Translations under genes and position numbers: made by a program
Shown: positions 252 to 41,518 of the stretch, piece after piece
Layout of the letters: every line of letters starts with the position of its first letter
Numbering within the stretch: the stretch's first letter is position 1
The notes under the pieces: generated by a model
Told to the model about the DNA's origin: nothing
Databases searched by the model: none
What the model saw: the letters and a program-made list of their open reading frames with translations, nothing else
From: a virus
Length of the DNA stretch: 43,252 nucleotides
IMG/VR virus record: IMGVR_UViG_3300048822_000009
Location: 1 to 43,252 of that record
Direction: 5' to 3' (one strand)

Positions 252-295
252 AATAACTAGGCCCGATTACTACCTAGTAATCGGGCCTAGTTATT
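252..295. repeat. CAH palindrome 1 (perfect 19-bp stem)
   Basis: Arms 252-270 and 277-295 are perfect reverse complements around a 6-nt loop (taccta). Compared with the commonest copy (arm ctagtccccattac), this one has ctaggcccgattac. Both changes are matched on the other arm, so the stem is kept by compensatory substitution. It lies between the MazG-like gene and the early operon. No T-run follows, so it is not a standard intrinsic terminator. Confidence 0.9.
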
Positions 296-379
296 CCCCA
301 AAGCTCTTCCCAGCACCCCCATCCACCCTAAACCCTCTCTAGAATCTTCCTCAAGTCTGGGCCAATCCGGGCCTCGAAA

Positions 380-388
380 TGATATAAT
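380..388 (+). promoter_or_regulatory. Extended -10 promoter candidate for the early operon
   Basis: TGATATAAT at 380-388 is a perfect extended -10 box (TGnTATAAT). No good -35 hexamer lies 16-18 bp upstream, as is usual for extended -10 promoters. Transcription would start near 395, about 43 bases before the start codon at 438, and would serve the run of overlapping genes that follows. Confidence 0.55.
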
Positions 389-437
389 TCATCATCGGTT
401 GCGAAATTGCACCGACAACCCGAGAAAGGAACCCACG

Positions 438-1019
438 ATGACTAACAACAACACTCTCGAATCAGCAACTTCCCATGAGGAAATCCTCACGGACGAAACT
501 TTCGACGATCTTCCAGTTTCCGAGAAAACCCCCCTCGCATACCCTCATGCAAGTCTTGACGACTTCCTGAAAGAAGTTTACATGCCCGAACCTTCGGCCC
601 CTGCTGACGACCTAGCGAATCTCAACTCCTTGCTTGCCGAAAGTCTCGCACAAGTAGAAGAGTCCCGACAAGTCCGAGCAACTCGCAAGGCCCTACACGA
701 GAATCGCCAGAACCTCACTGTCGAGCAGAAGCAGGCATTGCGTTTGCAAATCGCCTTGCACGAACTCAAGCACGAATGGACAGCAGAAGCCGAAGTCGTC
801 TCTTTTCGTATCCAAGAATGCTCTTGCTGCCGAAGCCAATCTTCGATATTCGAAGGATTTTTCCAGCGCCAATCTCATCGTTCTTCGAAGATATCTCGCT
901 GGGTTGCACAAACCAATGCGCCACTGGATGGGAGCACTCTCCAGCGGGAGGTGAAACTCGAACGGGAAGAAGTCCCCGTTTGCATTGCTTGCATTCAAAA
1001 CTTGGGGTATTCATTATGA
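438..1019 (+). CDS. Hypothetical protein with C-terminal CxxC pairs
   Basis: I do not recognise this 193-residue protein. The N-terminal half is acidic and polar. Residues of about 70-130 form a long charged helical stretch rich in R, E and Q. The C-terminus carries ECSCCRS and, about 60 residues later, PVCIACI, which look like two halves of a zinc-binding site. The frame extends back to an ATG at 399, but AAAGGA at 425-430 lies 7 bases before the ATG at 438, so I place the start there. It is the first gene of the early run, and its stop overlaps the next start (ATGA at 1016-1019). Confidence 0.7.
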   Translation: MTNNNTLESATSHEEILTDETFDDLPVSEKTPLAYPHASLDDFLKEVYMPEPSAPADDLANLNSLLAESLAQVEESRQVRATRKALHENRQNLTVEQKQALRLQIALHELKHEWTAEAEVVSFRIQECSCCRSQSSIFEGFFQRQSHRSSKISRWVAQTNAPLDGSTLQREVKLEREEVPVCIACIQNLGYSL

Positions 1020-1303
1020 CGCAATCGACAGTCAAAACCACGGTCTATCTTATTCGTGCTGGGGGGGATTTCCAAATCATAGCCTACAAGCCATACGATC
1101 AGAAAATAATTGCGTCAATGGGAATTGAGATGCAAGTCCCTGCGGATTGCGACCCCATTGCAGAGGAACTGACCAGCATTGCAAAGGAAAGGGATGATCT
1201 CGCTTCTTTCATTAAATTCAAGGAAGAAGCATTGGACTCTCGACTACGTAGCATACTTCAATCCAAAGGAAACTCTCATGGCACTACGACCGCTCAGGAG
1301 TAA
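1016..1303 (+). CDS. Hypothetical early protein, 95 aa
   Basis: The start overlaps the previous stop as ATGA, a sign of translational coupling. The product (MTQSTVKTTVYLIRAGG...) begins with a beta-rich segment and ends with a charged helix of about 50 residues. No motif lets me assign a function. It belongs to the tightly packed early operon of small proteins. Confidence 0.65.
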   Translation: MTQSTVKTTVYLIRAGGDFQIIAYKPYDQKIIASMGIEMQVPADCDPIAEELTSIAKERDDLASFIKFKEEALDSRLRSILQSKGNSHGTTTAQE

Positions 1304-1457
1304 GTCCCCGATAACCTCTATCTTGAATCCCCGGTTCCCCTATGTTCCGGCCTCGCAAACGGATGTAGCTGCGACGTTTGCGAGGGTTCGTAAGCAGCAA
1401 ATGGGGGCTGGGAAGCTCCAAACGGAAACACTAACTATTGTGAAGAGGGTGAAATGA
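1278..1457 (+). CDS. Small basic hypothetical protein, 59 aa
   Basis: AAAGGA at 1264-1269 precedes the ATG at 1278 by 8 bases, which decides this start. The gene overlaps the previous one by 26 bp. The product is basic, with RPLRSKSP near the start and FPYVPASQTDVAATFARVRK in the middle. I recall similar short proteins with a YVP..TDV..TF core from other phages of proteobacteria, all without known function. Confidence 0.6.
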   Translation: MALRPLRSKSPITSILNPRFPYVPASQTDVAATFARVRKQQMGAGKLQTETLTIVKRVK

Positions 1458-1681
1458 GTGAAACGAAAATTAGCGAAGCTATGCTAAAGGATTTGATTGC
1501 ACTAGCGAAGGAGGAAATTCCTGCTGACCAGTCAGGGGATGAGGAGTTTATCCCTGAAGATTGGTCCGGCGGAAATTACGACGACTGCTTTGATATGGGA
1601 GAACACACTGGAAGGATACTTCTTGCACGCTGTATACTTGACGCTCTTGAAATTGACTACGGCAAGAAAGGAATAGCATGA
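1454..1681 (+). CDS. Acidic hypothetical protein, 75 aa
   Basis: The gene is coupled to its neighbours on both sides by ATGA overlaps (1454-1457 and 1678-1681). The product is strongly acidic, with GDEEFIPEDWSGGNYDDCFD in the middle, between two short helices. No family is recognised. Acidic early proteins of this size are often inhibitors or DNA mimics, but nothing specific supports that here. Confidence 0.65.
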   Translation: MSETKISEAMLKDLIALAKEEIPADQSGDEEFIPEDWSGGNYDDCFDMGEHTGRILLARCILDALEIDYGKKGIA

Positions 1682-2064
1682 AACCATTCGACCTAGAAGC
1701 TTTCCGCAACGGGGATATAGCACTGACGCGTGACGGTGGAGAAGTGAAGTTCGTAGCTGAATGCTCGGAAAAGGAATTCCCAAGGCTCCGCGAAAGTCAC
1801 CGTCTGGTGTATGCAACCGAGTACGGGATAGTCACCACTCGGACGGCAGGCACTCGATATCCCGACAGGACCCACCCCAATGATCTCGTGGGCATGAAGC
1901 CGAAGGAAGTTACCTATTGGGTGAATGTCTTTAAGAATAATCAGGGAGTAATTTGCTCGTCCCACTTCCCGTACACGTCAAAAGCATTCGCGGAGGAGGC
2001 TTTTGAGCAGCTTTCGGAGGACGAGAAGCTGGCGTCCGCTGTCCCCTTAACCATCACCCTTTAG
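1678..2064 (+). CDS. Tandem-module family protein, copy 1
   Basis: First of five neighbouring copies of one small phage module. The shared layout is an opening [MP]F[DN]LE.F..G..A.TR.G...FVA, then a RL.V strand, a Y/P.G turn, the signature DLVGM or DIIGM, and a closing strand set (here VTYWVNVFKN). Single-copy relatives with a TRDG motif and a closing YVNVY strand are common in phages of Gram-negative bacteria and have no known function. This copy is 128 residues and complete, and it starts with an ATGA overlap. Confidence 0.75.
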   Translation: MKPFDLEAFRNGDIALTRDGGEVKFVAECSEKEFPRLRESHRLVYATEYGIVTTRTAGTRYPDRTHPNDLVGMKPKEVTYWVNVFKNNQGVICSSHFPYTSKAFAEEAFEQLSEDEKLASAVPLTITL

Positions 2065-2075
2065 GAGTCTTCCCC

Positions 2076-2414
2076 ATGCCCATTCCACAATCTTTAGGAG
2101 AAGACTTTCTAATGTACATTGCATTTTTCGGTCTTGGAGTATGCTTTTGCAGCATCTATCACGACATCACAACGATCCGAAAACTGGAGCGAGAAGCAAA
2201 AGAAGCCCACGAGGCGATGATAGACTGGGATGCGGCGTATGCCGCGAAATACCCGCAGGCCACCCCTCTGCCGAAGCTTCTTTCACCAGAGGAAATCGAG
2301 CAACGCTATCCATCGGTGGATGCGTCTCCCGCAGGAAGCTATCCATTGCAATCTCCCCGAAACTCAACAACTGAAAAGGACCCTGACCCCAATGGCACGC
2401 ACGAAATCTCCTGA
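2076..2414 (+). CDS. Small membrane-anchored hypothetical protein
   Basis: This 112-residue protein has a hydrophobic stretch at residues of about 11-30 (FLMYIAFFGLGVCFCSIYHD), followed by a charged helix (IRKLEREAKEAHEA) and a proline-rich tail, so a single N-terminal membrane anchor is likely. TAGGAG at 2062-2067 fits the ATG at 2076. A second ATG at 2112 has a similar site and would still keep most of the anchor. Function unknown. Confidence 0.65.
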   Translation: MPIPQSLGEDFLMYIAFFGLGVCFCSIYHDITTIRKLEREAKEAHEAMIDWDAAYAAKYPQATPLPKLLSPEEIEQRYPSVDASPAGSYPLQSPRNSTTEKDPDPNGTHEIS

Positions 2415-2610
2415 AGGAAGTAACAGCCTTCACACATACATCCCCGACGATCTCTGGCTAGCACTTCAGCTTGAATTGCATTCTGAGGTTGAAGGGAGAA
2501 TTCCCCAAGGGGCGATCCAGCGACTTGTATGCCAAGCACTTCGCAAGGAACTGGAACTTAGAAAATCTCAACGGCAAGAAAGGATTGAACATGGAACTGG
2601 CACAATTTGA
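2392..2610 (+). CDS. Conserved small phage protein (LPDDLW...VPQGA type), 72 aa
   Basis: The core YIPDDLWLALQLELHSEVEG and the following RIPQGAIQRLVCQAL resemble a short protein seen in many tailed phages (pattern lpeDl.aqLdlhl.SevEGRvPqGA). The size and a helix-turn-helix-like layout would fit a ribbon-helix-helix type regulator, but I cannot show this. The gene overlaps both the membrane-protein gene and the next module copy. The start at 2392 follows AAAAGGA by 11 bases, which is a rather long spacing. Confidence 0.65.
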   Translation: MARTKSPEGSNSLHTYIPDDLWLALQLELHSEVEGRIPQGAIQRLVCQALRKELELRKSQRQERIEHGTGTI

Positions 2611-3034
2611 CTTGGAAGCATTTAGGCGGGGGAGGGTAGCCCTTCTGCGGAACGGAAAGGAAGTTCGTTTTATAAGAGAGATTTGTCAGCCGGAAATCCC
2701 TGAAAGATATCGACTTTTTGTAGAAATTTTGGGGGAGACTACAAGCGCATGCACAGTGTATCCGCTGACCCCAGAGGGGAAAATGTGGGACTCCCCCTCC
2801 CCTTTTGACATTATCGGCATGGAGCCGGAAAAGCGCATTTACTATTTCAACGTGTATCTGGGCCGGTATAATAACACAGCCTATTGCGGAGGATTGCAGA
2901 AAGACAAGGAAACGTGCGTAAAGTTTGCATCGAACGTAAAGCATGGCCGAGAAAATGATCAAGTTCTGGCCATCGCTATCCCCATTGAATGGAATCGTCC
3001 TGAGTCAGCATGGAGTCCGCATGAAACCCTTTAA
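2591..3034 (+). CDS. Tandem-module family protein, copy 2
   Basis: Second copy of the module (147 residues). It opens with QFDLEAFRRGRVALLRNGKE, has PFDIIGMEPEK in place of DLVGM, then the YYFNVYLG strand and a closing AIAIPIEW. It is the longest single copy and has a 10-residue extension at the end. AGAAAGGA at 2576-2583 is 7 bases before the ATG at 2591, which supports this start over the upstream one in the same frame. It overlaps copy 3 by 14 bp. Confidence 0.75.
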   Translation: MELAQFDLEAFRRGRVALLRNGKEVRFIREICQPEIPERYRLFVEILGETTSACTVYPLTPEGKMWDSPSPFDIIGMEPEKRIYYFNVYLGRYNNTAYCGGLQKDKETCVKFASNVKHGRENDQVLAIAIPIEWNRPESAWSPHETL

Positions 3035-3722
3035 TTTGGAAGAATTCAAAGCCGGAAAAATAGCAATTACGAGAAGTGGGCAGGAAGCCAGTTTTATAGC
3101 CTATCTCGACCATCCAGACATTCCAGAGGGATATCGACTCTTCGCAAGATTGGTGGATATCCCTCAATTTCACCCGCGACATCCTGACGGGAGCCTCTTC
3201 AGGAATAGGAACGATCCGCATGACCTCGTAGGGATGAAGGCAGAAAAGAAAACATCGAGCAATGAGGGGATAGTCCCCAAAATTTCAACCGTTAAGAAAG
3301 AAAAAGGAACACAAATGAAACCATTTAACCTCAGTAGCTTCTGCTCTGGAAAACCAGCACTCACGGGGTCAGGGAAGACGGCTCACTTTGTAGCTTATTT
3401 TTCCAGAGGCGAATTCCCTGATTTCGAGGAGTACGAACGGCTCGTAGTTCGGCTGGAGGGGGTGGAGGGTAGAGGTCTAGAGGCAATAGAAACCTACAAT
3501 CCAGAGGGGAAGTACTGCAATGTCGGGGAATATGGAGGAAGAGATTTGATAACAATGAAAGAGCAAGAGGTTACTCAATACCTCAATGTTTTCCTCTCAA
3601 TGGGTGAGCTATGTTCATTCGGACATCCTACTCAGGAGGCCGCTAAGGGGCAAGCAGAAAGTAGAGACAGACTGGAGGTGAAGTTCCTTCACGTAGCCGT
3701 GCCAGTAACTTTTAACCTGTAA
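3021..3722 (+). CDS. Fused tandem-module protein, copies 3 and 4
   Basis: One open frame of 233 residues holds two modules. Module 3 (residues 1 to about 75) starts MKPFNLEEFKAGKIAITRSG and reaches HDLVGM, but lacks the usual closing NVF...PI half. A short linker (VPKISTVKKEKGTQ) joins it to module 4, which starts again with MKPFNLSSFCSGKPALTGSG and is complete. The linker DNA holds a good ribosome site (AAAAAGGA) before an in-frame ATG at 3315. This looks like an in-frame deletion that fused two former genes, and module 4 (135 residues) may still be made on its own. Confidence 0.75.
   Translation: MKPFNLEEFKAGKIAITRSGQEASFIAYLDHPDIPEGYRLFARLVDIPQFHPRHPDGSLFRNRNDPHDLVGMKAEKKTSSNEGIVPKISTVKKEKGTQMKPFNLSSFCSGKPALTGSGKTAHFVAYFSRGEFPDFEEYERLVVRLEGVEGRGLEAIETYNPEGKYCNVGEYGGRDLITMKEQEVTQYLNVFLSMGELCSFGHPTQEAAKGQAESRDRLEVKFLHVAVPVTFNL
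3298..3317 (+). promoter_or_regulatory. Internal ribosome binding site and start codon inside the fused module gene
   Basis: AAAAAGGA at 3299-3306 is followed 8 bases later by ATG 3315-3317, in the same frame as the long ORF. The ATG begins MKPFNL, exactly like a module start. This would allow module 4 to be translated separately from the fused protein. Confidence 0.6.
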
Positions 3723-3744
3723 CAAAGAGAGGAAAGACTCCAAA

Positions 3745-4134
3745 ATGCCGACACTATTTATCACAACTCAAGCGACCCCCTTTGACTTCGATGACTTCTG
3801 CGCTGGGAGACCCGCGATCACCAGAAACGGGAGGAAAGCCCACTTTGTAGCATACATCTCATATGAAACTGACCCTGACTATGACGATTATGATCGACTT
3901 ATCGTCCGTCTGGAAGGGGATCCTTCGGGAGGCTCCGCAGCAACGTATAGTTCCAGTGGCTCTTATTTCGATTCGGGAAAATCCAGCTTCGATTTGGTGG
4001 GGATGGAACCGCAAAATGACCGCTATCATGCCGTAAAGCTACTAGCTACCTTCCCTACCCAAAAGGAAGCTGAGGAGGATATCGAAGAAAGGGAACTGAA
4101 ACACAAAAAGGATGTTTTCCTTTTCACAATTTAA
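3745..4134 (+). CDS. Tandem-module family protein, copy 5
   Basis: Last copy of the module (129 residues). It has a short leader (MPTLFITTQA), then TPFDFDDFCAGRPAITRNGR and KAHFVAYIS, the RLIVRLEG strand and SSFDLVGMEPQ. The closing half has drifted (YHAVKLLATF in place of Y.NVF). The segment AHFVAY...D.DDY.RL.VRLEG is closest to module 4, which suggests that copies 4 and 5 duplicated last. The helicase gene follows 15 bases downstream. Confidence 0.75.
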   Translation: MPTLFITTQATPFDFDDFCAGRPAITRNGRKAHFVAYISYETDPDYDDYDRLIVRLEGDPSGGSAATYSSSGSYFDSGKSSFDLVGMEPQNDRYHAVKLLATFPTQKEAEEDIEERELKHKKDVFLFTI

Positions 4135-5492: not shown

Positions 5493-5541
5493 GAGGCCCT
5501 ATGCGATTATAGGGACTCATTACTCATTAATAATAGGGACC
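5493..5541. repeat. CAH palindrome 2, degenerate and three-armed
   Basis: Three related arms occur here: ggccctat (5495-5502), atagggac (5509-5516) and atagggacc (5533-5541). The first can pair with either of the other two, so two exclusive hairpins are possible. The third arm runs directly into the start of the next gene (agaaATG at 5546). Confidence 0.55.
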
Positions 5542-5545
5542 AGAA

Positions 5546-5767
5546 ATGACATATCCTACAATGACTCCTGAACTGAGAGAAACCCTTCGCCAGAAAGCCC
5601 GAGAAGGCGCCCTGACCCTAGAGGAACAGCGAATGGCGATTGCTGCCCTGAGGGAAGATCGTGTGCGTGCAACAACCGTTAGTGCAAAAAGTCGTGCGAC
5701 TAAGGCTGAGGCGAAAGCCAAACAAGCCCCAATCGATTGCGCAGACCTATTGAGTCAACTCCAATGA
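5546..5767 (+). CDS. Conserved small phage protein, 73 aa
   Basis: A lysine/arginine-rich helical protein with a core ALTLEEQRMAIAALREDR, then a basic alanine-rich stretch and the closing DCADLLSQLQ. Short proteins with a LEE.R.AIAALR core and a (D/E)DLLA.L tail are frequent in tailed phages next to recombination genes. Their role is unknown. The ATG lies 5 bases after the third arm of CAH 2, so the arm forms part of the translation start. The stop overlaps the nuclease start (ATGA). Confidence 0.7.
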   Translation: MTYPTMTPELRETLRQKAREGALTLEEQRMAIAALREDRVRATTVSAKSRATKAEAKAKQAPIDCADLLSQLQ

Positions 5768-8053: not shown

Positions 8054-8121
8054 GGGGACTAGCATCGTATTATGAAGTTACTCGATAACTAGTCCCCATT
8101 ACTAGAAAATAATAAGGACCT
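8054..8121. repeat. CAH palindrome 3 with an extra upstream arm
   Basis: The normal element is at 8085-8121 (ataactagtccccatta ... taataaggacct). An additional arm ggggactag at 8054-8062 is the exact complement of ctagtcccc at 8089-8097, so the middle arm can pair either upstream (9 bp, perfect) or downstream (imperfect). The 3' arm runs into aaaATG of the 36-residue gene at 8125. Confidence 0.75.
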
Positions 8122-8124
8122 AAA

Positions 8125-8235
8125 ATGAAGGAGAAGCGCGACACTGACAACCACAACACATACACACTATTCGACATCCTTATAGTAATCTTTTTCCTAA
8201 TCGTACTCTATCTCGAATCTTACCCTGAAAGCTAA
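8125..8235 (+). CDS. Small single-pass membrane protein, 36 aa
   Basis: A short ORF starts right after the CAH 3 arm (aaggacctaaaATG). The first 12 residues are charged and polar (MKEKRDTDNHNT), followed by a clear membrane segment (residues of about 15-30, DILIVIFFLIVLYL) and a short polar tail (ESYPES). It ends 2 bases before the SSB-like start codon. No homologue is recognised, and the job is unknown. Confidence 0.6.
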   Translation: MKEKRDTDNHNTYTLFDILIVIFFLIVLYLESYPES

Positions 8236-8787: not shown

Positions 8788-10161
8788 ATGCCATTCATAC
8801 ACGAATCAGAGATTATTGTCCCATCCGACAGGCAACGGAAGACCTTTGACCCCGACAAACTTGCCGAACTGGCCCTCACGATCACAACCAAGGGATTGAT
8901 GCACGCAATTGTCTTACGAGAAGGTCGAATCCTCGTTGCAGGGGAGACCAGACTCAAATGCATGCGGGACATTTGGGCTATCGGGGGAAACTTCCAGTAT
9001 AATGGGGAAATTGTCGAAAAAGGAATGATCCCCTTTACGGACCTTGGCAAGCTCTCCCCTCTCGAAGCCGAAGAGGCCGAATTGGAAGAAAATACTCGCC
9101 GGACTGACCTGACTTGGCAGGAGCAATCTTCCGCTATCCAGAAACTCCACAAGCTTCGCACGCTGCAAGCGCAGGCCAAAGGCGAAATCCATACTGTGGC
9201 GGATACCTCAGCGGAGCTGACTGGCAGACGTGACGGATCGTACCAGAATAATGTCCGCGAGGCCGTCATTGTTGCCAAGCATCTCGATAACCCGCTTGTC
9301 GCAGCGGCCAAGAACCAAAAAGAAGCGATCAAAATTATCAAGCGCGAAGAAGCCAGCGCGAAGTATGTGCAACTTGCTGAAAGCGTAGGCAAGACCTTCT
9401 CGGGGAAAGTGCACACTGCCGTCAATGGGGATTGCTTGGCATGGCTGAGAAATGAATGCCAAGCAGATTATTTTGATGTCATCCTGACTGACCCTCCTTA
9501 CGGCATGGAGGCTCAGAATTTCGGAACCCGCGCCGTCAATACCCCAGCCCATCAATATGACGACAGTCCGCAAGCATGGAAGCTTCTCATGGATCAATGG
9601 GCACCCCTGAGTTTCCGGGCCGCAAAATCCCAAGCCCACGCCTATGTCTTCTGCGATATCGACAACTTCCCGTTGCTGAAGGAAGCCATGCGAAAGGCTG
9701 GATGGTATGTGTTCCGAACTCCGCTGGTAATTGTCCGCCCCAATGCTTTCCGCACTCCCTTGCCCGATGAAGGCCCGCGTCGCCAGTATGAAATCTGCCT
9801 CTACGCGATCAAAGGCCACAAACACACTACAGGAATCCAATCGGATGTTATCACAGCATATGCCGACTCTAATCTCTCTCATGGGGCCCAGAAACCTATC
9901 AGTCTGTATGAAAATCTGCTTAGTCGGAGTGTGCGGCCTGGGGATCGTGTCTTGGATTGTTTTAGTGGGACTGGGACTATATTCCCTGCTGCCCACAAGT
10001 TTAAGGTTATTGCGACAGGCGTGGAACTCAATCCAGAATACTACGCGATGGGCCTGCAACGCTTGCGGGACTTGGATGCGCCGGGGGGAGTTTCTCCGGG
10101 AGAAGCAGCCAAACTTTCGGGAGAACTTGCCGGAATGCTTGCGAGAGGGGGGCAGCGATGA
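8788..10161 (+). CDS. ParB-like domain fused to a DNA methyltransferase
   Basis: 457 residues. The N-terminal part matches ParB/Srx-type domains (DPDKLAELALTITTKGLMHA, then VLREGRILVAGETRLKCM). The C-terminal half is a class beta DNA methyltransferase, with motif IV TDPPYGME first and motif I VLDCFSGTGTIF later, for amino methylation of A or C with S-adenosylmethionine. The linker (residues of about 110-210) is helical. Such fusions are common in phages and may protect DNA from restriction or mark it. The frame is open upstream, but MPFIHESEI at 8788 starts the domain. The ribosome site is weak. Confidence 0.85.
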   Translation: MPFIHESEIIVPSDRQRKTFDPDKLAELALTITTKGLMHAIVLREGRILVAGETRLKCMRDIWAIGGNFQYNGEIVEKGMIPFTDLGKLSPLEAEEAELEENTRRTDLTWQEQSSAIQKLHKLRTLQAQAKGEIHTVADTSAELTGRRDGSYQNNVREAVIVAKHLDNPLVAAAKNQKEAIKIIKREEASAKYVQLAESVGKTFSGKVHTAVNGDCLAWLRNECQADYFDVILTDPPYGMEAQNFGTRAVNTPAHQYDDSPQAWKLLMDQWAPLSFRAAKSQAHAYVFCDIDNFPLLKEAMRKAGWYVFRTPLVIVRPNAFRTPLPDEGPRRQYEICLYAIKGHKHTTGIQSDVITAYADSNLSHGAQKPISLYENLLSRSVRPGDRVLDCFSGTGTIFPAAHKFKVIATGVELNPEYYAMGLQRLRDLDAPGGVSPGEAAKLSGELAGMLARGGQR

Positions 10162-10418
10162 CACTCTGCGCAAGGAACTTTGCCAAACGACTGTACCTGA
10201 CTCGCAAGAGTCGTGGAATTAGCCTGAAAGCTCTCGCTATCAGGGCGCGGGTGCCTGAAGCCGTCATACAGGAAATGGAAGCTGGTAAAGCTGACGGCCT
10301 GCCCCGAATTAGGCTGGTCAAGAGATTGTCGGAAATCCTCGGAGTTCATTCGGACTATTTGCTTCTCCGAGACCATAAACAACCTACGGAACTGGAAGGA
10401 ATGGGAAATGAAAAATAA
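10158..10418 (+). CDS. XRE-family DNA-binding protein 1
   Basis: 86 residues with a helix-turn-helix of Cro/C1 type: AKRLYLTRKSRGISLKALAI then RARVPEAVIQEMEAGK, LPRIRLVKRLSEILGV and SDYLLL. The gene is coupled to the methyltransferase by ATGA. It overlaps a second, unequal XRE gene. With no integrase in sight, the pair more likely tunes early or late expression, or the methyltransferase, than lysogeny. Confidence 0.8.
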   Translation: MTLCARNFAKRLYLTRKSRGISLKALAIRARVPEAVIQEMEAGKADGLPRIRLVKRLSEILGVHSDYLLLRDHKQPTELEGMGNEK

Positions 10419-10635
10419 ATGGAATGCTGAAAAATTTCAACGGAGATTGGTAGAAACCAGAACTGAGCAAGGCTTGACTCAATTGGAAGTTGGCAGATAT
10501 CTCCATACATCTTCGCACACGATAAGTAACTGGGAACAAGGACGAACTTTTCCACGCCCTCATGCACTATACGCATTGTGCGAACTGTATGACATATCAG
10601 CGGACTGGCTATTGGGGTTGGAGGGGGACTACTAA
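10408..10635 (+). CDS. XRE-family DNA-binding protein 2
   Basis: 75 residues: FQRRLVETRTEQGLTQLEVG, RYLHTSSHTISNWEQGRTFP, HALYALCELYDISADWLLGL. This is a standard single-domain Cro/C1 repressor fold with the recognition helix SHTISNWEQG. It overlaps the first XRE gene by 11 bp. The overlapping TAATG at its end couples it to the polymerase gene. Candidate operators are the TTGTTTC...GAAACAA palindromes near 37.3 and 37.9 kb (inference). Confidence 0.85.
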   Translation: MKNKWNAEKFQRRLVETRTEQGLTQLEVGRYLHTSSHTISNWEQGRTFPRPHALYALCELYDISADWLLGLEGDY

Positions 10636-13029: not shown

Positions 13030-13060
13030 GGGCGGGGCCACCCGTGGAATGGCCCCGCCC
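13030..13060. terminator. GC-rich hairpin between the converging arcs
   Basis: gggcggggcca (13030-13040) and tggccccgccc (13050-13060) form a perfect 11-bp stem with a 9-nt loop. Read on the minus strand it is followed by TTTTC, which makes an intrinsic terminator for the late transcript. Read on the plus strand there is no T-run, so it would be weaker for the polymerase transcript. It sits exactly at the meeting point of the two gene arcs. Confidence 0.85.
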
Positions 13061-14409: not shown

Positions 14410-14911
14410 GAATTGCTCCTATGAGGAGGTTTCGAGCAATTCGATTCGCCCATCCTCCGAGAAATTCCGGCTTCTTCAGGCTTACATAGTATTCCAGATG
14501 ATAAGCACAAAATCTCGAAATTACTGGAATTGTCGAGCATGTGCGAGCAGTGCCAATTGTGCCTGCCCCCAGAATCCCATCCTCTGCGATGCCCAAGGCT
14601 CGCTGAAGCCATCGAATGGGGTCGCCCCCATTGACCGCGGCATCGAAGATTTGATATGCAATGCCAATTGGAAGCTGATCGCATTGGTGAGCTACCCAGT
14701 AGCGGCTTTTGTAGATCATTTGGGCGATTTCGACGGGCATAGCCTGCATTTCCCCTTCGTAGCCGCTGGCGCGTGCAACAGCTTCGGTGATGCCCCACAT
14801 TGTTTCCCCTCCCGAATCGTCAGGATTGTTGCTGTAGCCCCCTTCAATGCCAAGTAGTGCCGTGAAGGCGCTTTTGAAGTCTGTAACGACTGGGATTGGT
14901 GAATTATCCAT
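14399..14911 (-). CDS. Endolysin, glycoside hydrolase family 108
   Basis: 170 residues. The N-terminus carries the GH108 signature LLGIEGGYSNNPDDSGGET and WGIT, with the candidate catalytic Glu at about residue 23. A C-terminal peptidoglycan-binding-like region follows (GDPIRWLQRALGIAEDGILG). This lysozyme cuts the glycan strands of peptidoglycan. There is no signal peptide, so export depends on the holin. Its ATG directly follows the CAH 4 arm (gggactagaaATG), so the hairpin can control its translation. Confidence 0.9.
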   Translation of the reverse strand: MDNSPIPVVTDFKSAFTALLGIEGGYSNNPDDSGGETMWGITEAVARASGYEGEMQAMPVEIAQMIYKSRYWVAHQCDQLPIGIAYQIFDAAVNGGDPIRWLQRALGIAEDGILGAGTIGTARTCSTIPVISRFCAYHLEYYVSLKKPEFLGGWANRIARNLLIGAIHAN

Positions 14912-14944
14912 TTCTAGTCCCTATTACTAGTGAGTAATGAGGCC
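14912..14944. repeat. CAH palindrome 4
   Basis: ctagtccctattac (14914-14927) faces gtaatgaggccctg (14934 onward) around a short loop. On the minus strand it lies between the stop of the membrane-protein gene and the endolysin start, only 2 bases from the ATG. Confidence 0.8.
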
Positions 14945-14960
14945 CTGTTATTAGGGCTTT
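14942..14960 (+). terminator. Small terminator-like hairpin on the antisense strand
   Basis: GCCCT gttatt AGGGC followed by TTTTT (14942-14961) is terminator-shaped on the plus strand, opposite to the genes here. It overlaps CAH 4 and the stop codon of the minus-strand gene ending at 14951. It could stop antisense transcription into the lysis genes, but the stem is only 5 bp. Confidence 0.4.
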
Positions 14961-17628: not shown

Positions 17629-17934
17629 CTAGTGTAAGATGTAAAAAGTATCCATTTCAGCATCGTATTCTTGCAGAAGCCCCCCTCCATTCTCTTGCAG
17701 GAGTTTGAAACTGCTTTGTACGAAACTCAAAGGAGGCTCGGGGCGGCTGAATGGCACGCTTTGGTTGTCCCGGACTCCGCGAAGGTAATCCTGCGGATTG
17801 CGGACCTCTTTGTGACGCTTGCAGACATAAAAGTTGTCCCAAGTCTTCATCGTGAGGCTGGCTTTGATCTTGGCCCCACAGAGATCGCAGACAACATTCC
17901 AATCCCCGTCTTTGTAATAGTCTGATTGACCCAT
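17629..17934 (-). CDS. Conserved zinc-ribbon phage protein, 101 aa
   Basis: The N-terminal half has VVCDLCGAKIKAS and, 16 residues later, YVCKRHKEVRNPQDYLRG, a CxxC...CxxH metal site. After that comes SVPFSRPEPP and a less ordered tail. Proteins with CDLCG.K.KAS...KTWDN..VC..H...RNPQD are common beside tail-fibre genes in short-tailed and siphophages. The role is unknown. TAATG overlap with the upstream stop at 17934 decides the start. Confidence 0.75.
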   Translation of the reverse strand: MGQSDYYKDGDWNVVCDLCGAKIKASLTMKTWDNFYVCKRHKEVRNPQDYLRGVRDNQSVPFSRPEPPLSFVQSSFKLLQENGGGLLQEYDAEMDTFYILH

Positions 17935-18335
17935 TAGGAGTACTCCAACCAATTTGAAAGGGTGGCGGTTCCGGCAGTCGTTATTTCATAGGAAGTATTG
18001 GGTGGTACGATACCCTGAACTGTCATGAGGGCCGTGGAAGTTCCTCCATTCTGCTCGTAAGCCGCCACAACTCCCCCTATTGTAAGGGCTGTAGCCGCAG
18101 AAGGTGCTAGGCTCACCACAACTGACACGAAGATACTGGCTTTCGAGGACGTGTACACTGTGCCGACGACCCTTGTCGGAGTAGAGTATGCCCCAGTGGT
18201 CCCTCCAATTGTGTAGGCTCGCACAAACAATCCAAGTTGCGAGAACCATCGTTGCCAGACGCTGGATGAAAATCCCCCATTTTCGACAACTGGCGTCGGA
18301 GGTGGGGGAACGGGGCCAAGAATATGTTTTGCCAT
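17934..18335 (-). CDS. Tail-associated hypothetical protein, 133 aa
   Basis: The protein begins MAKHILGPVPPPPTPVVENG, then SSSVWQRWFSQL, followed by beta strands rich in T, S and V, as in small tail or baseplate-type proteins that precede the fibre. The start is 1-2 bases past the CAH 5 arm (aggccctaaaATG). A direct structural role is likely, but I see no specific family. Confidence 0.6.
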   Translation of the reverse strand: MAKHILGPVPPPPTPVVENGGFSSSVWQRWFSQLGLFVRAYTIGGTTGAYSTPTRVVGTVYTSSKASIFVSVVVSLAPSAATALTIGGVVAAYEQNGGTSTALMTVQGIVPPNTSYEITTAGTATLSNWLEYS

Positions 18336-18336
18336 T

Positions 18337-18372
18337 TTAGGGCCTTATTACTAGTTAGTAACGGGGACTTAA
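18337..18372. repeat. CAH palindrome 5
   Basis: Read on the minus strand: attaagtccccgttac, loop taacta, gtaataaggccctaa. Pairing is less perfect than in other copies. One arm holds the stop codon of the PurD-like gene (TAA 18369-18371), and the other ends just before the ATG at 18335. Confidence 0.75.
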
Positions 18373-19697
18373 TATTCCCAACTGGAGGCATAGCCCCTAG
18401 CTTGAAGCTTGGGAAGCTGCTTTTCCAGCCTCTGCCCAATGTCAAGACGATACATGGGGGAATTCGGAATTTCAAGAGAGTCTATCACGGAGTAGGCTTT
18501 CTTGGCTGCTTTGCTGACAGAATCCCCCACTCCACTCGCAACAAGGACTTCGTCCGCAGTCGTCACTAGCATAGCTTCTTCCACGATGCGAGAGCCTCGC
18601 AAGACAGGGGCTTTGCCCAGCTTCATGCTGATCGGGTGGATGTTGTATCGATTGGATTCGTCAATCCCCCATACAGGATAATCCTCAGCATCTTTATTGA
18701 GGGCTTTGCTGAAGGGGAAATTCGGCATGGCGACAAGAACGCCTACGGCATGCTTTGTCAGTGGCTCGAAGGTGTCTCGACCCTCCAGGAGGTCTTTCAT
18801 CCAAGTAGCGATCTCGGGGTGCAGAACTTGCTGAATGTTGAAGAGTGGCCAGCCAAATCGGCATGTATGCTCCATCGGACCGGGGGGCAAGCTGGCGTCA
18901 TCCGGGATGATAACACTCACGTCAATGTATCCGGTGTATCCGGCGCGATGGAGTTGGGCTTCGAGCGGCACAAGAACCTCTTGCGCTAGCATACTTTCCT
19001 CCAGAGTGCAATACTTCATTGCGGTCCCCATTTCGCCCGTATTCACCCCCAGTTCCCCATTCATGAGCTTCTTAAATTCGAAGTTTTCGAGAAACCATTT
19101 GCTGAAGCCATTGCGACCGAACCAGCCTCCGACAGCCATCTCAATTCCGGGGCAGAATTCCTGCAAAATGAAGCTTTCTTTGAGTTTGGCCTTCTGTTTC
19201 CATCGTTCCAGCATGAAAACCATGTCTTCGGGACCCTTGGATACATACGACATTGCTTTGTCAGCGTCGCCATTGGGCTTGCTAACGTAGCGTTTGAGGG
19301 TTTTCTGCACATGCAAGCTGGCCTCGTCGTAGTTTTTGAAGACTTCGTAGGGGAGAGTGGGAATACCAGCATTGTCGAAGACTGCTTGGCCGCATTCACG
19401 ATCCGTTTCCCACTTTGCGGTCTCCATGCCAGCCGAGAAGATCGGATACCCTTCCCGACGGTATTTCTCCAATGCTTGCAGGTATTTGAGGTTCATGCTA
19501 CAGCAAATGAGGCCATCCTGTGCCCATTTCATGTGGGGTTCCCAAGAGTTTACCTTGGTCAGGAGTCCGTCCCCCATACAAGAGCGCACGCCGGGGCGCT
19601 GTTCGGGCATCCAAATCTTGACAGTGTGGCCTTCGGCTTCGCATCGAAGGGCGAAATCAAGGAAGAGGAAATTAGCATCAATGAGGAGGATGTTCAA
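18369..19697 (-). CDS. PurD-like ATP-grasp ligase
   Basis: 442 residues, close to full-length phosphoribosylamine-glycine ligase (PurD), which joins glycine to phosphoribosylamine in purine synthesis. It has an N-terminal Rossmann start NILLIDANFLFLDFAL, ATP-grasp strands VSKPNG and FILQEFCPGIEMAVGGWFG, NTGEMGTA (PurD: NTGGMGA), MEHTCRFGWP (PurD: EFNVRFGDPE) and a C-terminal YRLDIG like PurD. The Mg-binding ExN is EHT here, so chemistry may have changed. The start is TTG at 19697 with AAAGGTG 5-6 bases upstream. It lies in the tail module rather than with nucleotide genes. Confidence 0.75.
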   Translation of the reverse strand: MNILLIDANFLFLDFALRCEAEGHTVKIWMPEQRPGVRSCMGDGLLTKVNSWEPHMKWAQDGLICCSMNLKYLQALEKYRREGYPIFSAGMETAKWETDRECGQAVFDNAGIPTLPYEVFKNYDEASLHVQKTLKRYVSKPNGDADKAMSYVSKGPEDMVFMLERWKQKAKLKESFILQEFCPGIEMAVGGWFGRNGFSKWFLENFEFKKLMNGELGVNTGEMGTAMKYCTLEESMLAQEVLVPLEAQLHRAGYTGYIDVSVIIPDDASLPPGPMEHTCRFGWPLFNIQQVLHPEIATWMKDLLEGRDTFEPLTKHAVGVLVAMPNFPFSKALNKDAEDYPVWGIDESNRYNIHPISMKLGKAPVLRGSRIVEEAMLVTTADEVLVASGVGDSVSKAAKKAYSVIDSLEIPNSPMYRLDIGQRLEKQLPKLQARGYASSWEY

Positions 19698-19717: not shown

Positions 19718-19759
19718 ATAACTAGTCCTCATTACTAAAAAGTAATAGGGACTAGTTAT
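19718..19759. repeat. CAH palindrome 6
   Basis: ataactagtcctcattac (19718-19735) and gtaatagggactagttat (19742-19759) pair over nearly the whole 18 bases, around a taaaaa loop. It lies between the 107-residue gene and the PurD-like gene. Confidence 0.9.
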
Positions 19760-20085: not shown

Positions 20086-20125
20086 TTCTAGTCCCTATTA
20101 CTAATTAATAATGGGGACTAGTTAT
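20086..20125. repeat. CAH palindrome 7
   Basis: ttctagtccctatta (20086-20100) pairs with taatggggactag (20109-20121 region) around an AT-rich loop. It lies directly before the start codon of the 107-residue gene. Confidence 0.85.
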
Positions 20126-23423: not shown

Positions 23424-24287
23424 TTATTCTGCGTTAAGCCAGCTATCGATTTGGGAGTCGATATTCTGAGATGACGACCCCGGCTGGTTGGAGAAAGTGT
23501 CCGAACTCGATATCCCAGTATCATAGTTGCTGTTCTGTTGGGATTGATTCCAGAGATTGCTGGCTGCGGAGCCTCCCGCATTGGCGAGTTGCTGGAATGC
23601 CGCCGATTGTGCAATGTTATTTTGTTGTTGGAGTTGACCTGCTACGCCCGGATTGCCGATATTCATGCCAGAAAGCTGGGCAAGTTGTTGAAATTGATTC
23701 GAATAGTTATTTGCAGCATTCACATCCAACGTATTGTAGAGTCCGGCAGAAGATTGCAGCATGCCAGATTGCTGAGTTGCTAGATTCGAGAGATTCGTTA
23801 CATCTTGTTGATAGGTTTGACTTGCCAAACCTTGGCCGTATTGGGTGAGGCCAGCGGCAAGATTCCCCGAGCCGTTCATGCCTTGGGCGGCCCCGCTCCG
23901 AGCGAGTGCTTGGCTACCCTGCGTCAGTGCAAATTGATACCCCGGAGTGTTTTCCAAGGTTTGCTGTTGAAGGGCCGAATTGCCAGTAGTATTGACTAGC
24001 CCATTCAAGGTCCCCATCGTATTCCCAAGTCCCTGCCCCGCATAATACTGCTGGCCAGCGATGTCTGCTACAGCCCCAGAATATTGCGTAGCCCCGCCTT
24101 GGGTCGAACCTTGCGTGTTGACGAGGTTCGACAGCATCGGCTGATACTGCGGACGTTGACCTGCGAACGGGTCAGCCGCGTTCGCAGCAGTCTGCGCATT
24201 CTGGGATGAAGTTTCGCTGTTGGACTTCGAGGACAGATACCCCCCAACTGCCAGAACAGACGCACCTCCGATATATGCCCATACCAT
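23424..24287 (-). CDS. Internal virion (ejection-type) protein, 287 aa, Q/N/G-rich
   Basis: A short hydrophobic N-terminus (WAYIGGASVLAVGGYLSS) is followed by a Q, N, S and G-rich body (for example NTTGNSALQQQTLENTPGYQ and ALARSGAAQGMNGSGNLAAG). Proteins with TPGYQFAL.QG...L.R..AA.G...SG are typical of the first ejection protein of many podoviruses (gp7 position). It follows the cupin gene with a TAATG overlap, and AAAGGA precedes the start. Confidence 0.75.
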   Translation of the reverse strand: MVWAYIGGASVLAVGGYLSSKSNSETSSQNAQTAANAADPFAGQRPQYQPMLSNLVNTQGSTQGGATQYSGAVADIAGQQYYAGQGLGNTMGTLNGLVNTTGNSALQQQTLENTPGYQFALTQGSQALARSGAAQGMNGSGNLAAGLTQYGQGLASQTYQQDVTNLSNLATQQSGMLQSSAGLYNTLDVNAANNYSNQFQQLAQLSGMNIGNPGVAGQLQQQNNIAQSAAFQQLANAGGSAASNLWNQSQQNSNYDTGISSSDTFSNQPGSSSQNIDSQIDSWLNAE

Positions 24288-24835
24288 TATGAATTCCTTT
24301 CCAGACGCGCTGCGTCTTCTTCTGAGATAAGTTCTGGCAATGGGTCACGAAGTCCGAGAGCCGAATAGGATTCTGCAATCACTTTTGATTCGATAATATC
24401 TAGGTCAGTTTCATTCGTGGAATGCACGAGGGTCCAGATCGTATCTTCCAGCACACTGATTGCCCGTTGGCATCCCGCAGGGGCAATCCCTGAATAAGGT
24501 GCTTTGAGTTCCCGTAACCCTTCCTGCTCAGTGAATACTCGGACATGGCCTTGGGAGATGAATTCGAAATGCTCATGCCGGTGGATTCGGCCAATGACAG
24601 TTATACCTCTTGGGAGGAAAATACTTCGAATATATTGACCATTGCCAGCCGAGTTTGGCTTCACGAATTCGTGCTTGAGGGGGAATGCCATTGGCTGAAA
24701 GGTGCCTTGAATACTGGCATTTATCATTTCCCTTCCCAACCGGACAATAGCTTTCCGACGCTCATAGGGGTCTGAAATCTCGGACCATTTCTGGTCCTCG
24801 TTACTCGCTAGTAATAGGGACTCGAAATCCATCAT
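24287..24835 (-). CDS. Cupin-fold phage protein
   Basis: 182 residues. Cupin motif 1 is visible as IGRIHRHEHFEFISQGHVRV (HxHxxxE then G), and motif 2 as GIAPAGCQRAISVLEDTIWT ending in H. Metal-binding cupins of this type are encoded between the needle-hub and ejection genes in several podoviruses, role unknown. The first 17 or so residues (MMDFESLLLASNEDQKW) are encoded by CAH 8 itself. The next in-frame Met is at residue 37, so the long start is likely unless a non-ATG start is used. Confidence 0.75.
   Translation of the reverse strand: MMDFESLLLASNEDQKWSEISDPYERRKAIVRLGREMINASIQGTFQPMAFPLKHEFVKPNSAGNGQYIRSIFLPRGITVIGRIHRHEHFEFISQGHVRVFTEQEGLRELKAPYSGIAPAGCQRAISVLEDTIWTLVHSTNETDLDIIESKVIAESYSALGLRDPLPELISEEDAARLERNS
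24787..24828. repeat. CAH palindrome 8, inside a reading frame
   Basis: tttctggtcctcgttac (24788-24804), loop tcgcta, gtaatagggactcgaaa (24811-24827). On the minus strand it is read in frame as the start of the cupin gene. The stem has several mismatches and G-T pairs. Confidence 0.75.
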
Positions 24836-28449: not shown

Positions 28450-28491
28450 ATTTCTAGTCCCCGGTACTAGCGAGTAATAGGGACTAGAAAT
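28450..28491. repeat. CAH palindrome 9
   Basis: atttctagtccccggtac (28450-28467) and gtaatagggactagaaat (28474-28491) form a stem whose outer 9 bp are perfect (atttctagt/actagaaat) while the inner part has mismatches. It lies between the major capsid gene and the next gene, a place where many phages have a terminator or processing site. Confidence 0.85.
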
Positions 28492-31544: not shown

Positions 31545-31561
31545 TCTCATTTCTCCTATTA

Positions 31562-31599
31562 TTGGTCCTCGTTACTAATTAATAATGGGGACTAGTTAT
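31562..31599. repeat. CAH palindrome 10
   Basis: ttggtcctcgttac (31562-31575), AT-rich loop, aataatggggactagttat (31581-31599). As plus-strand RNA several positions pair as G-U. As minus-strand mRNA these would be A-C mismatches. Confidence 0.8.
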
Positions 31600-37220: not shown

Positions 37221-37264
37221 AATAACTAGTCCTTATTACTAAAAAATAATGGGGACTAGTTATT
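37221..37264. repeat. CAH palindrome 11
   Basis: aataactagtccttatta (37221-37238) and taatggggactagttatt (37247-37264) pair over 18 positions, two of them T-G. It stands upstream of the whole late arc, beyond the promoter candidate. Confidence 0.9.
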
Positions 37265-37883: not shown

Positions 37884-37900
37884 CTTTGCATCTTACAATT

Positions 37901-37940
37901 ACCGGGCCTCGTTACTAGCTAGTAATCGGGACTAGTAATC
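37901..37940. repeat. CAH palindrome 12
   Basis: gggcctcgttac (37904-37915) faces gtaatcgggactagtaat (37922-37939), with a perfect ACTAGCTAGT centre. The two arms belong to different sequence types, so it looks like a hybrid of two element variants. Confidence 0.8.
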
Positions 37941-37990: not shown

Positions 37991-38019
37991 TTGCAAAGTT
38001 CATTTCTAGTCCCTATAAT
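37991..38019 (+). promoter_or_regulatory. Rightward promoter merged with a half CAH arm (CAH 13)
   Basis: TTGCAA (37991-37996), a 17-bp spacer and TATAAT (38014-38019) form a good sigma70-type promoter. The -10 box is part of tttctagtccctat (38003-38016), which is one CAH arm without its partner. It is the likely main promoter of the rightward arc, with transcription from about 38026. Confidence 0.65.
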
Positions 38020-38059
38020 TCACTCATCGGCTCAACAAACACCAAACACCAAACAAACA

Positions 38060-38911: not shown

Positions 38912-38953
38912 ATAACTAGTCCTCATTACCAGAAAATAATAAGGACTAGAAAC
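38912..38953. repeat. CAH palindrome 14
   Basis: ataactagtcctcatta (38912-38928), loop ccagaaaa, taataaggactag (38937-38949). Both arms carry the pair T-A where other copies have C-G, a further paired change. It lies between two rightward genes. Confidence 0.9.
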
Positions 38954-38987
38954 TAAACCCGCGACTAACCTTTAGGAGAAGTAAATC

Positions 38988-39515
38988 ATGACAAACGCTT
39001 TCGACGCAAAACGCATTCCTGACATCTCCACAGCCATCTTTCCGGAATCCCGGACTCTGCACATCGTTTGCAGAAACGGCGACAAGCTGATCCTCGAATT
39101 AGACAAACTCCCAGCCGACATTCTAGACTATGCGGCTCTCGTAGGGCTCAAAGAGAAGCTTCTCGATGCTTCAGCATTGGCACGATCTACTGTCACGGGC
39201 CGAAGCGCCTCTCTTGACGAAAAATTCTCAGCCATGAAAGCGGTTTTCGACCGATTGACAGGACCATTACCGACTTGGAATGCCAAGAAAGCCGCCCCTG
39301 CTTCCCCGGATTCAATTTTCCTTAGGGCTGTATGCGAATATCGGCAAGTGGACTCCGAGAAAGCAAAGGCATTTCTCGCCACGCTGACGAAGGCCCAAAT
39401 AGCGTCAATCAAGCTTCACCCTGACATTCGCCGGATCATGGACCGAATGGCTAGCGAGGCCCTTGCAGATGAATCGTCGGATGACGTGAACGACTTACTT
39501 GATTCACTCTCCTAA
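38988..39515 (+). CDS. Conserved phage protein, 175 aa, distant relative of the 41644 protein
   Basis: The first third is a beta domain (RTLHIVCRNGDKLILELDKL) followed by AALVGLKEKLLDASALARST. A central linker with LPTWNAKK follows. The C-terminal half is helical (SIFLRAVCEYRQVDSEKAKA, FLATLTKAQIASIKLHPDIR). The same plan is seen in the 232-residue protein at 41644, so I treat them as paralogues. Related proteins are common in phages and have no known role. TAGGAG precedes the ATG. Confidence 0.65.
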   Translation: MTNAFDAKRIPDISTAIFPESRTLHIVCRNGDKLILELDKLPADILDYAALVGLKEKLLDASALARSTVTGRSASLDEKFSAMKAVFDRLTGPLPTWNAKKAAPASPDSIFLRAVCEYRQVDSEKAKAFLATLTKAQIASIKLHPDIRRIMDRMASEALADESSDDVNDLLDSLS

Positions 39516-39531
39516 CCGTCAGGAGAATCGA

Positions 39532-39711: not shown

Positions 39712-39728
39712 CGGCTTTCGGAGTCCTT

Positions 39729-39794: not shown

Positions 39795-39887
39795 GCATCC
39801 TAGGGCCTCTCGAAACCATTTCGCAATAAAACTATGGGAAACGATGGGGAATTCCCCCTCAGAAAACCCTCAAAAGGAACTGCCAGC

Positions 39888-40076: not shown

Positions 40077-40134
40077 GCATGAAAGAGGTTACTGATACAT
40101 CGTTGCCCACAAATTATCAAAAGGAACTGACATC

Positions 40135-40494
40135 ATGAAATCAAGTGAAATTCTGCAAGCTGCGAAAGCACGGATCAATACCCCAGAAAAGTGGGCGAAA
40201 GGAGCCCTTGCTCGAACCAAGAATTCTCACGTAGTACCCACAACTTCACGAAGTGCTGCTTGTTTTTGCTCATATGGAGCGATAATGGTCGAATGCGGTG
40301 AAACTGATCCTGAACCAGCCTTGGCGTGGTTGTGGGTTGCAGTCTCTAAAAGATGGTCGTCTGCCCCCAATGTCACCCGATGGTCGTCTGCCACCAATAT
40401 CCCCCGATGGAACGACAGTCCAGACACCACTCACGCCGATGTCATGCACGTATTCAGTGACGCGATAGACCTCGCGCAAGAAGCTGGAGATTGA
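40135..40494 (+). CDS. Conserved phage protein with an internal 9-residue duplication, 119 aa
   Basis: EILQAAKARINTPEKWAKGA, a cysteine pair CFCSYGAI, then NIPRWNDSPDTTHADVMHVF and AIDLAQEAGD fit a widespread phage family (...L..A...I..P..W.KGA....CFC..GA.........NDS.D.THADV...FD.AI..A). Just before NIPRWND it contains RWSSAPNVT and RWSSATNIP in tandem, encoded by a 27-bp repeat. Role unknown. AAAAGGA precedes the ATG. Confidence 0.75.
   Translation: MKSSEILQAAKARINTPEKWAKGALARTKNSHVVPTTSRSAACFCSYGAIMVECGETDPEPALAWLWVAVSKRWSSAPNVTRWSSATNIPRWNDSPDTTHADVMHVFSDAIDLAQEAGD
40351..40404. repeat. 27-bp in-frame tandem duplication
   Basis: 40351-40377 and 40378-40404 match at 22 or more of 27 positions, and a partial third start (cgatgg) follows at 40405. 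The duplication keeps the reading frame. Confidence 0.85.
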
Positions 40495-40499
40495 CCATT

Positions 40500-40739
40500 A
40501 TGAACCCTACCAAGGATACTGGAATGCCGGAAATAAAGAAAACCCTCCCCAAGCGTATCGACGCGTTCTGCTTTCAGGCGCCTGAGCTTTCGGAAAAGTG
40601 GGGAAGACTCTACCGAAGATCCATTCTGTTCTATATGGAAATTCTGTTGAATGACCCCACTGAGGAGGAATTTCAAGCCGCGAAAAGCCTGTTCGAGCAA
40701 GCTTTAGCGTGGCCGGGCCATTCTGACGGCATCGAATAA
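40500..40739 (+). CDS. Hypothetical protein, 79 aa
   Basis: MNPTKDTGMPEIKKTLPKRI followed by a helical region (KWGRLYRRSILFYMEILLND, EEEFQAAKSLFEQALAWPGH). CTGGAG lies 10 bases before the ATG at 40500, and a TTG at 40491 overlaps the previous stop and is a possible alternative. No family is recognised. CAH 15 follows. Confidence 0.65.
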   Translation: MNPTKDTGMPEIKKTLPKRIDAFCFQAPELSEKWGRLYRRSILFYMEILLNDPTEEEFQAAKSLFEQALAWPGHSDGIE

Positions 40740-40741
40740 TC

Positions 40742-40783
40742 ATAACTAGTCCCCATTACTAGAAAATAATGGGGACTAGAAAC
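40742..40783. repeat. CAH palindrome 15 (perfect 13-bp stem)
   Basis: ctagtccccatta (40746-40758), loop ctagaaaa, taatggggactag (40767-40779). This is the cleanest copy of the common type and a good reference for the family. Confidence 0.9.
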
Positions 40784-40816
40784 CCTCTCCCACCCACTTC
40801 AGCAAGGAAAATTCCC

Positions 40817-41260
40817 ATGAAATTCCTTTCGATTCTCCCAATCTTCCCCCTACTCGCGTGCTTGCATGCGTCTGCTTCCGATAATCTTCCGTCGGACCCA
40901 TCCCCATCCCCATCCCCATCCCCCATTCCTGTCTATACGCGAGCGGAAGAAGCCATTTTCGCAAGCGAACTCCTCATCGACTGGGCGCAATCAACCGAAA
41001 TCCGTGGGTATTGTGCGGGGAGAGTGGGCTGCACAATGCATGAAACAAACCCCCTTTTGCCGGATCATCCCTCGCGCTCGACGCTGGCGGGATATTTCAT
41101 CCTCTCGGAGATGCTGCATGCGGAAGTGTGTCTGGGTGAATGGGGCGAAGCCGGAAGGGGGGTGTCGGCCTACGTCCGGGGGGTGTGTCATGCAAGCCTC
41201 ATTCTCGAAGCTGCCCCCATCACCCACAATCAACGCATCGGCCTACGCGTGAGATTCTAG
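40817..41260 (+). CDS. Exported or lipid-anchored phage protein, 147 aa
   Basis: A signal peptide (MKFLSILPIFPLLACLHASA, with a possible lipobox LLAC at 15) is followed by a linker SDPSPSPSPSPIPV, which is encoded by a CCCATC hexamer repeat (40897-40925). The mature part has IFASELLIDWAQSTEIRG and HETNPLLPDHPSRSTLAGYF, a pattern (D..Q.......E.NP.L..HPS...) known from small phage and bacterial membrane proteins. It may act in the envelope, for example against superinfection. AAGGA precedes the start. Confidence 0.65.
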   Translation: MKFLSILPIFPLLACLHASASDNLPSDPSPSPSPSPIPVYTRAEEAIFASELLIDWAQSTEIRGYCAGRVGCTMHETNPLLPDHPSRSTLAGYFILSEMLHAEVCLGEWGEAGRGVSAYVRGVCHASLILEAAPITHNQRIGLRVRF

Positions 41261-41290
41261 CCCTCACTCGCCAGCGACCGAAAAAACCTC

Positions 41291-41320
41291 TTGCAATCGA
41301 ACGAAGTTTCGGTTTACAAT
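41291..41320 (+). promoter_or_regulatory. Promoter candidate upstream of the 232-aa gene
   Basis: TTGCAA (41291-41296), 18 bp, TACAAT (41315-41320). The -35 hexamer is the same as in the promoter at 37991. It lies in the non-coding gap after the exported-protein gene. Confidence 0.45.
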
Positions 41321-41475
41321 GGGGGTGGCGGAGGGGACGAGGAGGATATAGTAGGTGTTGGTTTTTCCTACTTGAGCGGAGCGAAAGTCAAATACAGGGG
41401 TAGAATAGGGGATTCGAGTCGCGCCAGCATCCCCTCCCCGCAAGAATGCGAGAATCCCCACTGACGCTATCCCCT
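41321..41475. other. Non-coding gap with short hairpins and atcccc repeats
   Basis: No gene is supported between 41261 and 41643. This part holds gtagg...cctac (about 41353-41373), ggggat...atcccc (about 41411-41437) and further atcccc copies near 41453 and 41469. CAH 16 follows. No tRNA fold can be completed. Confidence 0.4.
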
Positions 41476-41518
41476 AATAACTAGTCCTCATTACTCGCTA
41501 GTAATCGGGCCTAGTTAT
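41476..41518. repeat. CAH palindrome 16, hybrid arms
   Basis: aataactagtcctcattac (41476-41494), loop tcgcta, gtaatcgggcctagttat (41501-41518). The left arm is the common type and the right arm matches CAH 1, so the pairing has two mismatches. This suggests exchange between copies. Confidence 0.85.

Follow-up and report, generated by a model that had tools for sequence, protein, structure and literature searches.

The 43,252-base virus record IMGVR_UViG_3300048822_000009 (G000; the window, analysed over its whole length) carries a 42-bp repeat in 15 full copies and one single 18-bp unit, and related phages carry families of the same geometry, each in its own spelling, at matching gene junctions. 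We interpret these repeats as operators at the borders of transcription blocks, for a dimeric regulator that the phage itself would encode and that would evolve along with its sites, most likely a ribbon-helix-helix (RHH)-like protein, and we assign this interpretation a probability of roughly 0.6.

A repeat family in the window

The 42-bp profile built from the 15 window copies recovers all of these copies, on which it was trained, on the + strand with E values from 3.5e-13 to 1.5e-9, and nothing else in the window scores better than E of about 1. By a symmetric position weight matrix (PWM) the copies score 47.5-63.1 bits, compared with a maximum of -1.1 in shuffled genomes. The analysis confirms the view of a first-pass annotation of this DNA that a phage-wide family stands at gene-block borders in numbers beyond chance. 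The family of about 16 palindromes of 36-44 bp that it described is real, but 'near-identical' is too strong a term, since identity to the reference copy ranges from 60 to 95%. The copy that it placed at 5493 is real as well, but is centred at 5526 and is odd in having one unit flipped and no outer hairpin. The element at 38003, previously taken for a broken half, is instead one 18-bp unit, ATTTC-TAGTCCCT-ATAAT (38003-38020, + strand), which scores below the threshold of the 42-bp model. On the window gene map 14 of the 15 full copies are intergenic, the copy at 24787 being the exception, as had been stated; the flanks of the window copies were likewise read correctly in that no T-run follows the stem.

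An Rfam scan of the window returned one chance match, elsewhere than the repeat, and no Rfam family for the repeat itself, in line with the earlier remark that no system of this kind is known. Searches of phage and plasmid collections for the element yielded only short chance matches. In viral contigs a stringent DNA pattern had zero matches and a relaxed pattern 38 single matches, the best of which scored no better than E 0.04 against the 42-bp model.

Dialects and conserved positions in related phages

Relatives were chosen by a shared DNA polymerase, in a first scan and then a wider one, and all site-bearing relatives are uncultivated. Site families were detected with cut-offs of 11/18 for the palindrome score and 23/36 for identity, and these were lowered to 10/22 when seeding gave fewer than three copies; the thresholds were set during exploration, with shuffles of 3-nt blocks as controls. 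The polymerase-sharing relatives bear palindrome families of their own, with the same geometry and a different sequence. Each of the 15 genomes from the window's subclade that are near-complete contains 11-16 copies; most of these score 40-70 bits against shuffled maxima of at most 16, and a few accepted copies are weak (about 17-21 bits). The clade half-site is approximately RTTAY-N8-ATTAC-NNN (with ends GTTAT...ATTAC in the consensus), in which the ends and the inner ATTAC are kept and the central eight bases are specific to each phage. Such phage-specific dialects point to a phage-made regulator that would read the sites and co-evolve with them.

MW202489, an uncultivated clade member from GenBank, has 8 sites. 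The palindrome-family method detects no site family in outgroups such as G027 and G032, and no real family was found in the cultured Microcystis phage Mel-JY34 (polymerase 38%) or in a Planctomycetota metagenome-assembled genome contig. Relatives selected through the portal protein (41-50% identity) gave neither an element-model match nor a palindrome family in the compared stretches, with the exception of L054, which is part of G003, a genome whose site family emerged in later analysis. Two AT-only palindromic runs in L009 (MW202796; 13790-13834 and 18640-18741) mimic a family and were rejected as a low-complexity artefact of the method.

Occupancy of gene junctions across the clade is nearly all-or-none. 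A site lies between Hel and Exo in 15/15 genomes (5506-5547 in the window, at the Hel-p73/Exo junction, where it abuts the ATG of a 73-aa gene and has its left unit flipped, giving an AGGGAC direct repeat), between the scaffold and GroES genes in 15/15 (31558-31599), between p232 and p206 in 14/14 (253-294, upstream of p206) and between p175 and p232 in 13/13 (40742-40783 and 41477-41518, the latter upstream of p232). The junction of D27 with the major capsid protein (MCP) gene is occupied in 12 of 13 genomes (28450-28491), that of D23 with Stab in 11 of 12 (24787-24828, within the 5' (N-terminal) end of the open reading frame (ORF) 24287-24835) and that of Sak4 with SSB in 13 of 15 (8085-8126); ten other junctions are occupied in 0/12 to 0/15. 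The remaining window sites are at 14910-14951, filling the entire gap between two minus-strand genes (the lysozyme start and the stop of the upstream gene); at 18334-18375, upstream of ORF 17934-18335; at 19718-19759, upstream of the ATP-grasp gene 18369-19697; at 20084-20125, abutting the start of ORF 19762-20085; at 37222-37263 and 37898-37939, both in the divergent, non-coding stretch that lies upstream of the late operon; and at 38912-38953, upstream of p175. The refuting outcome proposed in the first-pass annotation was looked for and not seen: related phages have the family at matching places and not scattered, and a stringent pattern matched no bacterial genome.

The gene maps of the relatives are our own greedy choice of ORFs and gave some spurious 'inside gene' sites. 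Four genomes (G030, G041, G043 and G056) have a site within the polymerase ORF at nucleotide ~567-572, and MW202489 has one site inside its polymerase gene; sites at one place within the polymerase are hard to explain except by selection on the DNA word itself.

Architecture of the sites

Each element is composed of two 18-bp units spaced 24 bp apart, with AT-rich ends and a phage-specific 8-bp core. When averaged over 27 profiles, each half contains an extra dyad centred at -12.5 (z 5.3; 4.6 for the core alone), and no other dyad centre in the half-site stands out. This makes each half a pseudo-palindrome of 18 bp, the form that a dimer would be expected to bind, and the lone unit of the window fits this definition. 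Read in gene sense, both arms give a single logo, and the pooled logo has no orientation.

Flipped units occur in G028 (7 tandem of 11), G056 (5/14) and the window (4/15; 12 bits at 5526). A flip keeps the unit and destroys the outer stem, and therefore there is no outer hairpin at 5506-5547. Compensatory change between arms is also absent, as, over 205 sites, the two arms of a site agree slightly less often than arms paired at random within that genome: the match in the variable block is 0.654 against an expected 0.693 (z -3.8), and z ranges from -2.7 to -3.9 across the outer, variable and inner blocks. The repeats are best explained as double-stranded DNA sites, not functional hairpins, and each arm fits the half-site consensus independently of the other. 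Terminator-like hairpins are absent just downstream of the clade sites (0/110) and are commoner just upstream of them (7/110 versus 1/250).

Candidate readers

Where the early region is sequenced, the families shared by all or almost all genomes include Hel, Exo, Sak4, SSB, the ParB-methyltransferase, Pol, p73, p175, p232 and p206; an RHH-like family of about 70 residues is also nearly universal (27/29 genomes). The window member of this family, a 72-aa protein with an AT-hook-like N-terminus (2392-2610, + strand), is the leading candidate reader, on residue-core associations that are suggestive, not decisive. Its N-terminus reads MARTK, with ARPK and RGRPKK in relatives, and its predicted strand is hypervariable. 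When variable columns are ranked by their association with the core, one central strand residue, a predicted contact, comes 4th among 1348, and the predicted contact triad is associated with the core at p=0.002 by permutation over 27 representatives. In a scan of all triads, the frame shifted by one contact (10, 12, 14) ranks 9th-15th of 814 and the Arc-like frame (12, 14, 16) about 180-210. MW202489, which was compared after the association tests, has a dialect nearest to those of G058 and G064 among 29 profiles, and its triad, E-K-N, is nearer to theirs (D-K-S and D-K-T) than to the triads of its nearest polymerase relatives. The AF2 monomer model (pLDDT 84) has helices at 19-29 and 39-66, with the strand not called, and comparison with PDB profiles gives weak matches to a CopG-family RHH protein and to the EndoAI antitoxin (E 0.3-0.5).

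Several observations weigh against our interpretation. Positions in p175 and some in the polymerase are associated with the core as strongly as those of the RHH-like protein; because they rank equally high, the RHH association is support, not proof. For the RHH-like family the whole-protein partial correlation falls short of significance (r 0.15, p 0.08). Of the several covariation designs, only some favour the RHH-like protein, and the association tests are only partly phylogeny-corrected. Pfam RHH_1 is matched by one of 31 family members (E 7.7e-4) and not by the window copy, Foldseek with the monomer model returned no match, and G027 has an RHH-like gene yet no site family. With the element masked, sigma70 promoters show no clear excess in the flanks (p 0.04 upstream, 0.21 downstream), and because this promoter evidence is weak an operator cannot be distinguished from a roadblock. 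No single protein stands out in the whole-protein partial Mantel tests.

Alternative candidates are the nearly universal clade proteins p175 (38988-39515, + strand) and its paralogue p232 (41644-42342, + strand), the latter with no convincing Pfam or fold match. In alignments p73 (5546-5767) and the paralogues p175 and p232 have a common acidic-hydrophobic C-terminal tail like (N/D)SDDLLxEL clade-wide. Another gene of the window (8791-10161), kept in element-bearing relatives, encodes an N6/N4 DNA methylase joined to a ParB N-terminal domain, and between this methyltransferase and the polymerase lie two small tandem XRE helix-turn-helix ORFs (10158-10635), for which clade conservation amounts to one match in G033. 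The XRE proteins were rejected as a general reader because they have nearly no matches in 19 related genomes (by tblastn, none for w10158 and only G033 for w10408).

Proposed mechanism and alternative explanations

In the mechanism that we favour, a phage-encoded dimeric regulator would read two-unit sites at conserved borders of transcription blocks, an RHH-like beta-ribbon reading the core and AT-hook-like arms the AT-rich ends. As its specificity drifts, all sites of the same phage would change together, giving rise to dialects, and its binding may switch on, obstruct or set the limits of transcription in each gene block, much as happens at stoperators, where binding halts transcription elongation. 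We infer protein binding, which is the option favoured here among those that the first-pass annotation listed, together with the identity of the binding protein and the effect on transcription.

The sites might instead act in transcripts as RNA hairpins, in RNase processing, stability, termination or ribosome-site masking. Many copies can be folded, and several end in ATG with a Shine-Dalgarno-like AGGGA or AAGGA in the 3' arm, but most clade sites do not share this start-codon overlap and some lie within the polymerase ORF. With arms that match slightly less often than independence predicts, outer stems broken by flipped units, no T-runs and no Rfam family, a role as RNA is very unlikely; arms without covariation and flipped units also speak against the processing or stability hairpin suggested earlier. 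Least likely of all are recombination sites (Xer/dif-like or for a serine recombinase) and mobile palindromic spacers. The inverted arms, variable 6-bp centre and placement at module borders resemble recombinase sites; however, no recombinase was recognised among the universal families, some unnamed families lying outside that scan, and the sites keep their places as their sequences change together. Random insertion would not explain why genomes with widely diverged polymerases use the same junctions in a nearly all-or-none manner. The scatter or position turnover expected of a mobile palindromic spacer (REP/RPE/MITE-like) is not seen, and the conserved occupancy of orthologous junctions across the clade speaks against the mobile spacer among the options first listed.

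A phage protein could also bind the DNA in a role other than transcription, such as segregation, condensation, replication or packaging, the binder being, for example, the ParB-like methyltransferase, p175 or p232. The spread of sites round the genome would suit such a role, as would the presence of the ParB/methyltransferase fusion in element-bearing genomes and its absence from G027 and G032, and p175 positions are as core-associated as those of the RHH-like protein. We nevertheless consider it unlikely, because a conserved methyltransferase (mean 60% identity) contrasts with a core that is free to vary, and because a fixed subset of junctions is more like transcription borders. Finally, the sites could serve a host factor, with the dialect tracking hosts that could differ between phages, but bacterial genome contigs had no match to the stringent pattern, a single window-specific one, and we rate this possibility marginally below that of RNA hairpins.

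Comparison with known systems

RHH repressors include Arc, MetJ, CopG and omega. Like these, the candidate reader has a predicted helix-helix that follows an N-terminal strand region, and as a dimer it would recognise pseudo-palindromic units; unlike them, it has an AT-hook-like N-terminal arm and one weak Pfam match in its family, and its units are 24 bp apart and not directly adjacent. The DNA uptake sequence dialects of Neisseriaceae are also a repeated genomic word whose spelling shifts in concert between lineages, as that of the phage sites does. The uptake words differ in being very many and in involving an uptake receptor, and they are not two-unit operators at fixed junctions.

Cluster A mycobacteriophages (L5, Bxb1, Trixie) contain about two dozen stoperators genome-wide, mostly intergenic, which are alike in number and place in relatives and whose consensus varies by subcluster with the repressor; these sites are 13-bp, asymmetric and oriented with transcription, and are bound by a monomeric two-domain repressor (PMC6550527, PMC9283540, PMC5712189). 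The phage repeats are similar in having many sites across the window genome, all but one of 15 intergenic, and in dialects that differ between phages, although an accompanying change in protein is suggested only. They differ in being 42-bp symmetric two-unit sites with no pooled-logo orientation, and no homologous repressor was seen. By analogy with stoperators, from which both the site type and the candidate protein differ, the repeats may function as operators. The repeated element of SPbeta, a 15-bp motif at about ten sites, was likewise noticed in silico, in intergenic DNA, before it was shown to be a repressor site, for MrpR, a repressor of recombinase fold (PMC10516654). Both are phage-wide intergenic motifs first found in silico, and they differ in that a dialect series runs across the clade here and none is described in PMC10516654.

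Other features of the window

A 126-nt repeat joins 12-137 and 43127-43252. At 1678-4134 several adjacent ORFs resemble tandem paralogues (MKPFDLEAFRNGDIALTRDGGEV..., MKPFNLEEFKAGKIAITRSG...) and have no tblastn match in 19 related genomes. A strong GC-rich hairpin between the convergent arcs (13030-13060) is a possible terminator, and a 27-nt tandem pair (GATGGTCGTCTGCC..., 40352-40405) appears inside a + strand ORF.

Implications

The repeats might belong to a clade-wide address system, with a fixed two-unit operator map, an AT-hook/RHH reader, a few-residue code and private lineage dialects that perhaps avoid cross-regulation by rival phages; we put this forward tentatively, as a rather doubtful extension. 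A regulon that is rewritten in concert at fixed positions across dozens of phages would constitute a natural experiment in which to follow the joint change in specificity of a DNA-binding protein and its dozen or so dispersed sites. Should the RHH code prove correct, the phage-specific specificity of the regulator would be readable from sequence, and this may open a way into the gene control of a large group of uncultured phages.

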